In this document: positions 200-12,081 of the stretch, in pieces | Position numbering within the stretch: the stretch's first letter is position 1 | Layout of the letters: each line of letters begins with the position of its first letter | Origin: Leucobacter chromiisoli | Lineage (GTDB): Bacteria > Actinomycetota > Actinomycetes > Actinomycetales > Microbacteriaceae | Length of the DNA: 64,000 nt | Reading direction: 5' to 3' | NCBI RefSeq assembly: GCF_016522505.1 | Contig: NZ_JAEHOH010000001.1 | Span: 1 to 64,000 of the forward strand | Notes under the pieces: model-generated | What the model saw: the letters and a program-made list of their open reading frames with translations, nothing else | Told to the model about the DNA's origin: nothing | The model's database searches: none | Program-made: the position numbers and the translations under genes

Positions 200-859
200 T
201 CAGAACAGTGTGGAGTCGACAGACACCAAGGGAGCTCCTGTGGTCAGTGCTCGTGAGATCTCGTCGCTCGCGTGCTGCACCTCAGCGACCAGCGTCTCGT
301 CGCCGGCGCGTTCAGGATCGAGCCACGTGTCGTGCTGGTCTCGCGGGAGTACGAGCGGCATCCGCGGCCAGTACTCGGCGGCTTCACTGTCCTCTGGTGC
401 ATCGCGGGTGACCATCGAGTAGGTGACGAGCTCGGTCCCGTCCTCCTGGGTCACGGTCGACGTGACGGCCGCGATCCCGAAGACCTCGCCGCCTGGCAGT
501 TGGAAGCGCCCCTTCTTCTCGACGTACCAGGTCGCAGGTAGGAGCGCGCGGTGCTGGAATTGGCGCTTCCAGCTCCGCAGAAGCTTGTCGTCACGCGAGT
601 TGAACGCACTAAATTTCGCGGGCCCGGATCCGTCGAGCCATAGCCACCACCAGGCCAGCTCGAGCGAGCGCTCGCCGCCGGCGTCGGCGCGGATGATCGG
701 GTTGAGGTTGAGCGCGCGCCTCCCGGTGATCTTCGCCGAGCCCGACCGGCTCCTCATCCACTCCTCGAGCAGCGTCTTGCTGGCCTGCTCGGAGAGCGGA
801 GGCAGGTCGTTGGGCAGTGTCGTCCCGCCGCCGCTGCCGAGTCCGTACGATGCGCACAT
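200..859 (-). CDS. Divergent SRAP-domain protein (YedK/HMCES-like)
   Basis: A 219-residue protein of the SOS-response-associated peptidase fold, whose members crosslink to abasic sites in single-stranded DNA through the N-terminal cysteine. Seen here: MC at the start (Cys2 after Met removal), a FNSRDDK segment (Asn87) matching the conserved INARVET region, WYVEKKG matching the FEWKK region, and PRMPLVL matching RRPLVL. The family glutamate appears shifted by one residue (Val113-Glu114), and the catalytic histidine before the R-x-P motif is tryptophan (Trp164), so activity may differ from YedK. The ATG is six bases after a TATCCT box, implying a leaderless mRNA. It lies in the integrated element. 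Family assignment is good; activity is uncertain. Confidence 0.8.
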   Translation of the reverse strand: MCASYGLGSGGGTTLPNDLPPLSEQASKTLLEEWMRSRSGSAKITGRRALNLNPIIRADAGGERSLELAWWWLWLDGSGPAKFSAFNSRDDKLLRSWKRQFQHRALLPATWYVEKKGRFQLPGGEVFGIAAVTSTVTQEDGTELVTYSMVTRDAPEDSEAAEYWPRMPLVLPRDQHDTWLDPERAGDETLVAEVQHASDEISRALTTGAPLVSVDSTLF

Positions 860-865
860 GGCCTC

Positions 866-871
866 AGGATA
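866..871 (-). promoter_or_regulatory. -10 box, leaderless promoter of the SRAP gene
   Basis: TATCCT on the minus strand, separated from the ATG at 859 by exactly six bases (GAGGCC). This places the transcription start at the start codon. No clear -35 element is visible. Confidence 0.5.
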
Positions 872-897
872 GGCCGCTCATCATCATGCCGGTAGAC

Positions 898-10882: not shown

Positions 10883-10911
10883 TTGCACATTACTCGAACA
10901 TGTGTTCGAAT
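10883..10911 (+). promoter_or_regulatory. Promoter of the radical SAM gene
   Basis: TTGCAC (10883-10888), a 17-base spacer and TCGAAT (10906-10911), with the ATG six bases further on, so a leaderless message is likely. The LexA box lies across spacer and -10. Confidence 0.6.
10894..10909. promoter_or_regulatory. SOS box (LexA operator)
   Basis: TCGAACATGTGTTCGA matches the actinobacterial LexA consensus TCGAAC-N4-GTTCGA in all 12 defined positions. It overlaps the -10 element of the radical SAM gene, an ideal position for repression. Confidence 0.85.
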
Positions 10912-10917
10912 AGCGCC

Positions 10918-12081
10918 ATGCGATGGGACGGGCAGAGCGCGGTGAAGCGAGTGGAGAGCGATGGCGTGCTCCCCGGCTTGGAGCTCGCCGAGGTGGCCGC
11001 CGTGCCCGGCCACCTCCGTACGGTGAGGTCGCCCGAGTTCCGAGGCGCCGCGTTCCACGAGGTGCTGGCCAAGAGCGCGCTGAACCGGGTTCCCGCCGCC
11101 TCGTCAATGCCCTTCCAGTGGACCGTCAACCCCTATCGCGGGTGCTCGCACGCTTGCGTCTACTGCTTCGCCCGCGGGTCGCACCGCTACCTCGACTTCG
11201 ACGCCGGCCGCGACTTCGACTCGCAGATCGTCGTCAAGGTGAACGTCGCCGAGGTGCTGGGGCGCGAGCTCGCCAGGCCCTCGTGGAAGCGCGAGACCGT
11301 CGCGCTCGGCACGAACACCGACCCGTATCAGCGGGCCGAGGGCCGGTACCGGCTGATGCCCGGCATCATCGACGCGCTCAGCGGCAGCGGCACCCCGCTG
11401 ACCATCCTGACGAAGGGATCGCTGCTGCGCCGCGACCTGCCGAGGCTCGCGGAGGCGGCCGAGCGCGTGCCCGTGCACCTCGCCATGTCGATCGCGGTGG
11501 GCGATCCCGAACTGCAGCAGGCGCTCGAGCCAGGCACGCCGTCGACCAGGGCCAGGCTCGAGACGGTCGCGGCGGCTCGGGCGGCCGGCTTCGACGTCGA
11601 CGTGTTCGTGATGCCCGTGCTGCCCTACCTCACCGATTCGACGGCGGCGCTCGAGCGCCTGCTCCGGGACATCCGCGACGCGGGCGCGGCCTCGGTGACC
11701 TACGGAGCGCTGCATCTGCGCGCGCACGTGAAGCCCTGGTTCCTCGCGTGGCTGGAGCGCACCCACCCCGAGCTGCTGGGGGCGTACCGCTCGCTCTATC
11801 CCGGCAGCGCCACCACCGCCCCGCAGGCCTACCGGCTCGAGCTCGCGAGCAGGATCCGGCCGCTCATCCGGAGATACGGGCTCGAGCGGACCGGGCGCTC
11901 GACGCGGGGCGCTCGGCTCGTGGAGCCGACCGCGGACACGGGTGCTCCGACGGTCGCTCCGAGGGGTGCGCGCCGCCTCCCCTCAACCTCCGGGCCCGTG
12001 CCCTCCGCCGCGGGTCGAGCACCCTCGTCGACCGGCCCGGTTCGGCCCGCCGACCCGGCAGTGGCGCCGATGCTCTTCTGA
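10918..12081 (+). CDS. Rv2578c-type radical SAM protein
   Basis: A 387-residue protein with the radical SAM 4Fe-4S motif CSHACVYC (Cys76, Cys80, Cys83) in the context NPYRGCSHACVYCFAR, as in Rv2578c-family and SplB-related proteins. SplB-like proteins repair UV spore photoproduct; the reaction of the Rv2578c family is not established. Residues 1-330 are the enzyme; the last about 55 are Pro/Ser/Arg-rich and variable. The start lies directly after the promoter. The LexA box links it to DNA damage, supporting a repair-related role by inference. Confidence 0.88.
   Translation: MRWDGQSAVKRVESDGVLPGLELAEVAAVPGHLRTVRSPEFRGAAFHEVLAKSALNRVPAASSMPFQWTVNPYRGCSHACVYCFARGSHRYLDFDAGRDFDSQIVVKVNVAEVLGRELARPSWKRETVALGTNTDPYQRAEGRYRLMPGIIDALSGSGTPLTILTKGSLLRRDLPRLAEAAERVPVHLAMSIAVGDPELQQALEPGTPSTRARLETVAAARAAGFDVDVFVMPVLPYLTDSTAALERLLRDIRDAGAASVTYGALHLRAHVKPWFLAWLERTHPELLGAYRSLYPGSATTAPQAYRLELASRIRPLIRRYGLERTGRSTRGARLVEPTADTGAPTVAPRGARRLPSTSGPVPSAAGRAPSSTGPVRPADPAVAPMLF

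Follow-up and report, generated by a model that had tools for sequence, protein, structure and literature searches.

The locus at positions 10883–12081 of the 64,000-nucleotide stretch of Leucobacter chromiisoli DNA analysed here (the window) carries a radical SAM gene with a LexA box over its putative promoter. This raises the question of what such an enzyme would act on after DNA damage, and where it would do so. Genes described as 'SplB-like' and encoding radical SAM proteins recur in SOS regulons, and a clamp-binding tail would tell where the enzyme works. It is considered probable that the gene encodes a radical SAM enzyme of DNA repair that is under LexA control and tethered to the clamp. 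The features concerned are the following.

10883..10888, + strand: −35-like hexamer TTGCAC, from the sequence; of the sites of the taxonomic family whose box has GTTCGA, 60/67 show TTG at this place
10894..10909, no strand assigned: LexA (SOS) box TCGAACATGTGTTCGA, a palindrome matching the consensus exactly; the genome has one other exact site, and orthologues keep the box, mostly at −24
10906..10911, + strand: putative −10-like hexamer TCGAAT, from the sequence and its fixed spacing in orthologues
10918..12081, + strand: Rv2578c-family radical SAM protein of 387 amino acids (NF038135, PF04055; spore photoproduct lyase is the nearest fold to its AlphaFold2 model)
11143..11166, + strand: CxxxCxxC motif for [4Fe-4S]/SAM, with C76, C80 and C83; cysteine in 221/221 aligned proteins at all three columns
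11908..12063, + strand: tail, residues 331–382, poorly conserved and probably disordered (pLDDT <50 for 331–387), beyond the NF038135 match
12064..12078, + strand: C-terminal APMLF, a weak form of the conserved terminal motif with Gln missing, proposed to bind the sliding clamp

The open reading frame runs from the ATG at 10918 to the stop codon at 12081, and a genome search found the gene in single copy. Its product had been described beforehand as an Rv2578c-type radical SAM enzyme, and this was confirmed by a match of 483.2 bits to NF038135 (rSAM_Rv2578c; cut-off 430) covering model positions 1–316 of 317. This full-length core match ends at residue 322, leaving the tail and the terminal motif outside the model. 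The CxxxCxxC motif together with a PF04055 match of 63.8 bits (cut-off 29.5) places the protein in the radical SAM superfamily. Against the proteobacterial sister family, PA0069 (NF033668), it scored 218.6 bits over the core, below the cut-off of 360. Members of that family, found above cut-off in 8/8 proteobacterial genomes checked, differ from the window gene in their N-terminus and in the type of LexA box, having their own clade's SOS box and a C-terminal QLSLF. These proteobacterial genes would appear to be those named splB in papers on the SOS response.

For comparison, 149 genomes of the taxonomic family of the window (Microbacteriaceae) were searched, of which 105 gave a match and 102 a match above the cut-off; 91 loci were read, with the ten lowest-scoring and one split match (G072) left out. 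A search of the phylum covered 246 genomes, with 114 matches, 25 of them above the cut-off. The 59 other actinobacterial loci counted below, many of which score below the NF038135 cut-off, include three plasmid records and exclude two repeats (L122 and L128), the groups f18 and f26 and the distant groups; 19 distant paralogues were hand-picked from the low-scoring matches. For the proteobacteria, a Paracoccus-led query gave at least 587 loci near it, and the best 80 were taken. Of these, 79 were counted, one labelled Marinimicrobia (L244) having been dropped, and assignment to alpha or to beta/gamma followed the record titles. The alignment of 221 proteins excludes long intein-bearing forms; the window protein is in it two times, once under the handle L019. 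The motif counts leave out eight tails that were cut off at the end of the sequence read.

The conserved terminal motif

Past the core, the proteins vary in length and sequence, yet they share similar ends. The typical endings are QPTLF or PTLF in the Microbacteriaceae, TQLTLL or EQLSLL (also QLTLL) in other actinobacteria, GDQLSLF in alphaproteobacteria and GAQLSLL or GGQMALF in Pseudomonas. In the alignment, L386 (94%) is the sole column at or above 90% after residue 284. Among the 84 Microbacteriaceae tails, leucine stands at −2 in 84/84, phenylalanine at −1 in 83/84 and glutamine at −5 in 49/84. Under a strict pattern, Q[LM]x[LMF][FLI], and a looser form of it, the hits were 1/84 and 49/84 in this family, 30/58 and 44/58 in other actinobacteria, 61/63 and 63/63 in alphaproteobacteria and 15/16 and 16/16 in beta/gammaproteobacteria, the last two sets being drawn from the best 80 of at least 587 proteobacterial loci. 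The tails of f18 are QxxLF-like (strict 0/8, loose 8/8), and f26 gave 0/2 and 2/2. Shuffled tails yielded 0.02–0.15 strict and 0.32–1.05 loose hits per set in the four main sets, and 0.00–0.15 and 0.05–1.05 over all sets. In 190 control ORFs from the window and the Microbacteriaceae loci, chosen by length and codon-position G+C and not from annotated genes, there were no strict hits, one loose hit and two LF endings, one of them NucS. The loose pattern failed in 35/84 Microbacteriaceae and 14/58 other actinobacterial tails; several of these 14 hold QLRLGV, QLTIV or internal QMSLDLG-like forms.

The window protein itself ends in APMLF, with neither the glutamine nor the leucine at −4, so that it has no QL(S/D)LF-type motif and retains the terminal LF alone. 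In its genus, the relatives L108 and L109 end in APTLF and QMTLF. The QL(S/D)LF-type motif is present in the wider protein family, PTLF being the usual form in the Microbacteriaceae.

A review gives QL(S/D)LF as the bacterial clamp motif at the C-terminus (PMC9690074), and the actinobacterial NucS is reported to end in [E/K][L/Y][T/R]LF, its C-terminus being needed for interaction with DnaN in Corynebacterium glutamicum (PMC8228993). EndoMS/NucS, a clamp-bound actinobacterial mismatch endonuclease, has the C-terminal LF in common with the window protein and differs in having an unrelated nuclease fold that is not radical SAM. As a positive control, NucS was found in 57/60 genomes, with an LF end in 30/30 loci read and NTLF in the source genome, which indicates that an LF end without glutamine can be a clamp motif in this taxonomic family. 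The terminal motif of the radical SAM proteins is thus predicted, from its sequence, to bind the beta sliding clamp. Its resemblance to the tails by which repair proteins hold the clamp suggests the place of action of the enzyme.

An unlikely though not negligible alternative is that the motif is a C-terminal degron or another docking peptide, by which the protein would be removed or placed once the SOS response is over. Proteolysis following induction occurs with some SOS proteins, and the motif is found mostly at the extreme C-terminus. Against this, several members carry extra residues past the motif (QLDLFAGIV, QLALFA, QLSLFQ and KQLSFLLTKKID), which fits a clamp motif better than a degron read from the end. 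The sequence is also identical to the clamp consensus in print, and an LF end is found on NucS of this taxonomic family too. A clamp-binding role is preferred for the motif. If it is true, deletion of two residues would give a handle on repair, mutation rate and survival; should the tail prove to be just a degron, or the substrate something other than DNA, the gene would be an ordinary new member of a known set of SOS genes.

In the distant paralogues, 4/16 closed tails are QEKLF-like and the box, at up to two mismatches, was found in 0/19; such ends on genes with no box indicate that the tail does not strictly go together with SOS control. It should also be noted that a divergent ORF of the SRAP family (PF02586, 53.7 bits) on the minus strand of the window (200–877) ends in VDSTLF and is the sole LF ending other than NucS among the 190 control ORFs. 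Its product is possibly another clamp-bound repair protein. Other SRAP proteins in the Microbacteriaceae were located with a crude motif score, 1/30 loci being unrecognised, and an LF end was seen in 0/29 of their closed tails.

Fold, cysteines and substrate of the enzyme

The AlphaFold2 model of the window protein has a pTM of 0.73, with 161/387 residues at pLDDT ≥90 and pLDDT <50 in residues 1–21, 29–42, 85–91, 94–102 and 331–387. A sequence search of solved structures with the single protein gave no match, and an A2 profile gave weak matches only (SkfB on top with E 0.0025; spore photoproduct lyase with E 0.86), so that a fold search was needed. Spore photoproduct lyase then came first in both structure comparisons, bearing out the distant likeness proposed in the preliminary description. 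With Foldseek the match was moderate (E 8.7e-10, TM 0.50 by query length), and with VIA-align 2 it reached Z 19.0 with an rmsd of 4.0 Å over 259 residues, the next family having Z 15.4. The lyase structures (PDB 4fhc, 4fhf and 4k9r) also share the CxxxCxxC motif, at an identity of 14–15%. The window protein differs from that enzyme in having no cysteine beyond the cluster ligands, and its gene in being LexA-controlled, as proposed below.

It contains exactly three cysteines, the ligands C76, C80 and C83, and has valine at 227. Three cysteines only were found in 47/221 aligned proteins. The alignment has no general fourth cysteine column besides 227, where cysteine stands in 64/80 Microbacteriaceae, 29/46 other actinobacterial and 1/85 proteobacterial proteins. 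In Bacillus subtilis spore photoproduct lyase, C141 is reported as the hydrogen donor (PMC5368176). Having the cluster cysteines only, the window protein lacks this thiol donor, which is a caution against naming it after that enzyme.

It is accordingly improbable that the product is a true spore photoproduct lyase, repairing the 5-thyminyl-5,6-dihydrothymine lesion by a radical relay through one cysteine and two tyrosines. The nearest solved fold is indeed that of the lyase, genes of the group are called splB in print, and the cysteine at column 227 in most actinobacterial relatives is a possible hydrogen donor in them. These points are set against V227 and the cluster-only cysteines of the window protein, shared by the 47 proteins above, and against the near absence of a column-227 cysteine in proteobacteria. 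NCBIfam includes a spore photoproduct lyase model, and it was not among the four families that the window protein matched at E ≤0.01. A Streptomyces member is, in addition, reported to superimpose on B. subtilis SplB with an RMSD above 4 Å (PMC12924846). The window protein, as modelled, thus shares the fold and is not classed as a spore photoproduct lyase, an argument that is weaker for relatives with a cysteine at column 227.

There is also little likelihood that the product is a radical SAM enzyme made in the SOS response to modify RNA or protein, with no part in DNA repair. The radical SAM fold serves many substrates, and PFL-activase, NifB and lipoyl synthase appear in the fold lists. They rank below spore photoproduct lyase, however (Z 19.0, next family 15.4), and both the clamp-like tail and the cognate LexA boxes in actinobacteria and in alpha-, beta- and gammaproteobacteria (see below) speak for DNA as the probable substrate.

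A further feature of the family is an intein within the Fe-S motif, inserted directly ahead of the third cysteine of the cluster, in 10/91 Microbacteriaceae loci (L060, L061, L067, L073, L077, L078, L080, L084, L087 and L099). In these, the SOS-made enzyme would have to splice before it could hold its cluster. NCBI has a separate model for the intein-bearing forms (NF038136).

The LexA box and the putative promoter

The full match to TCGAAC-N4-GTTCGA that had been noted at this locus is exact at 10894–10909. It is the sole exact site in the window, and shuffling the window 100 times produced none. The 3.35-Mb genome has one further exact box (C16:22758), the identical 16-mer just before imuA' (NF058630, 162.9 bits, cut-off 65). 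Downstream of imuA' lie an ImuB-like ORF (IMS domain, 26.0 bits against a cut-off of 23.2) and then an error-prone polymerase ORF of the DnaE2 type (NF004225, 1417 bits). Seventeen other loci were read around exact or one-mismatch sites. One such site precedes the start of RuvA (RuvA_N, 47.6 bits) and another a start read by eye as that of UvrA, for which Pfam gave only a sub-threshold ABC_tran on a 70-residue piece; several further sites with one mismatch fall within unrelated ORFs or close to them.

Conservation of the box upstream of orthologues had been named beforehand as a check, and it was found in the Microbacteriaceae, where 39, 72 and 84 of 90 upstream regions (the own locus included; L023, cut at the contig start, excluded) had the box at zero, up to one and up to two mismatches, against 0, 0 and 1 of 90 interiors of the same genes. 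The corresponding numbers for the other actinobacterial orthologues were 6, 30 and 48 of 59, against 0, 1 and 2 interiors. Examples are the boxes of Nonomuraea (TCGAACTGCTGTTCTA, at −24) and Streptomyces sp. BHT-5-2 (GCGAACATGTGTTCTA, at −59). In two Microbacteriaceae loci (L034 and L041), the gene is preceded by a tandem pair of LexA-like boxes spaced about 23 bp from each other.

Among the best 80 of at least 587 proteobacterial loci, the alphaproteobacterial box GTTC-N7-GTTC was exact in 60/63 alpha loci and CTGT-N8-ACAG in 13/16 beta/gamma loci, with none in gene interiors of either set; 3/63 and 3/16 of these loci were without the exact box of their clade. Exact matches to the box of another clade were limited to the actinobacterial box in 1/63 alpha loci and the alpha box in 1/90 and 1/59 actinobacterial loci. 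The exact clade box precedes four of five plasmid-borne proteobacterial copies (Sinorhizobium, Paracoccus, Azospirillum and Aeromonas); the fifth, that of Legionella (L181), has none, with at best two mismatches to the gamma box. In Legionella adelaidensis (L181) this plasmid-borne PA0069-family gene is divergent from polX. Tsukamurella (L183) showed no box (four mismatches at best). In the eight genomes of f18 (L166–L173), whose proteins are PA0069-like, there was no recognisable LexA box, and a dyad search of the eight upstream regions gave nothing convincing; a different LexA motif may be in use in them. One locus labelled Mycobacterium sp. KBS0706 (L264) encodes a PA0069-type protein behind an alphaproteobacterial LexA box, for which reason it was counted with the alpha loci; the label may be wrong.

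The finding of each clade's own box on the gene indicates that LexA control was kept while the LexA box changed. Together with the conservation in the Microbacteriaceae and the identical box before imuA', it strongly supports the SOS control that had been proposed for this gene, and LexA would be expected to bind the box and DNA damage to induce the gene in the source organism. A chance match was rejected on the exact-match and conservation controls. That the box is due to chance or is the site of another palindrome-binding regulator is most improbable since, frequent as loose matches are in this G+C-rich genome (511 places with up to two mismatches, 156 for the reversed pattern), exact sites number only two, with the second before imuA', and the box is kept in 84/90 upstream regions and varies with the LexA type of the clade.

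The −35-like TTGCAC and the −10-like TCGAAT are separated by 17 bp (counted by eye). The latter ends 6 nt from the ATG, which would place the start of transcription at the ATG and make the transcript leaderless, and the box overlaps 4/6 of its bases. A strict sigma-70 scan, which requires A at position 2 of the −10, found no promoter here, so that the promoter call rests on conservation. In 87 Microbacteriaceae sites (L023, L092, L102 and L104 excluded; L102 has an exact box at −56), the box starts at −24 from the ATG in 79, at −25 in seven and at −23 in one. This fixed spacing supports the arrangement put forward in the preliminary description, in which the box covers the −10 of a leaderless promoter, the promoter itself being putative.

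A trade-off between the box half-site and the −35 was seen in the Microbacteriaceae loci with the box at −24, GTTCGA occurring with TTG and GTTCTA without it. TTG stands at the −35 place in 60/67 GTTCGA sites and 1/20 GTTCTA sites (60/7 against 1/19; Fisher 1.7e-12, indicative only as related genomes are not independent). A GTTCTA half-site would give a better −10 (TCTAAT), and such coupling is expected if the half-site doubles as the −10.

Proposed mechanism and published precedents

It is proposed that LexA bound to the box would shut the leaderless promoter, and that DNA damage would free it and allow the Rv2578c-type enzyme to be made. With its fold like that of spore photoproduct lyase, the enzyme may draw on SAM and a [4Fe-4S] cluster to carry out radical reactions on damaged DNA, among which direct reversal of a lesion is the most likely. 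The flexible C-terminal tail with its predicted clamp-binding motif would tether the enzyme to the beta clamp, and the tether would direct its action to sites of replication or repair. A wider reading is offered tentatively, as a possibility somewhat short of an even chance, in which an SOS-induced radical SAM enzyme riding on the clamp is common to at least two phyla examined (more according to publications on the SOS response) and reverses a DNA lesion where replication takes place, that of the window doing so without the thiol hydrogen donor. LexA control would then have persisted through changes of the box between clades, and the clamp motif through changes of the linker in front of it.

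The SOS control of such genes is already known; novelty would lie in the terminal motif, whose function is a prediction. PA0069 and Rv2578c are reportedly present in published SOS lists of Pseudomonas aeruginosa and Mycobacterium tuberculosis. In the one open-access library searched, which lacks most subscription papers, neither an SOS treatment of PA0069 nor a link of this radical SAM family to the clamp was found.

The closest precedent is vnz_31145 of Streptomyces venezuelae, a 'radical SAM protein' gene reported to be 19.97-fold up with mitomycin C and to have a LexA ChIP peak (PMC9380542). It is alike in being a LexA-regulated radical SAM gene; its box, TCGACCGTTCGCTC, reported at −61, is weaker and further from the start than that of the window. 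That paper names no family for it, and membership of the Rv2578c family seems likely. A radical SAM protein has also been placed in the core SOS regulon of Gram-positive bacteria, Leifsonia xyli and M. tuberculosis being among the species of the set (PMC7739468), and a 'DNA repair photolyase' of M. tuberculosis described as RecA-dependent (PMC8151990) may be Rv2578c. Control of splB by LexA is reported for alpha- and betaproteobacteria and is said not to have been seen in gammaproteobacteria (PMC3323433); in contrast, the Pseudomonas and Aeromonas loci analysed here carry the box. In Bacteroidetes, splB (COG1533) is likewise reported under LexA (PMC8565304).

Genomic neighbours have been reported as well. 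Genes for SplB-like proteins adjoin ImuB-C genes (PMC3765255), and in archaea they adjoin nreB, whose relative NreA binds PCNA (PMC4929162).

Homologues were also found on mobile elements, on 67 plasmid and eight phage records, none at or above 60% identity. The Samy prophage is reported to integrate within an Rv2578c-family gene in Streptomyces relatives (PMC12924846), which would make an apparently SOS-controlled gene a phage attachment site.
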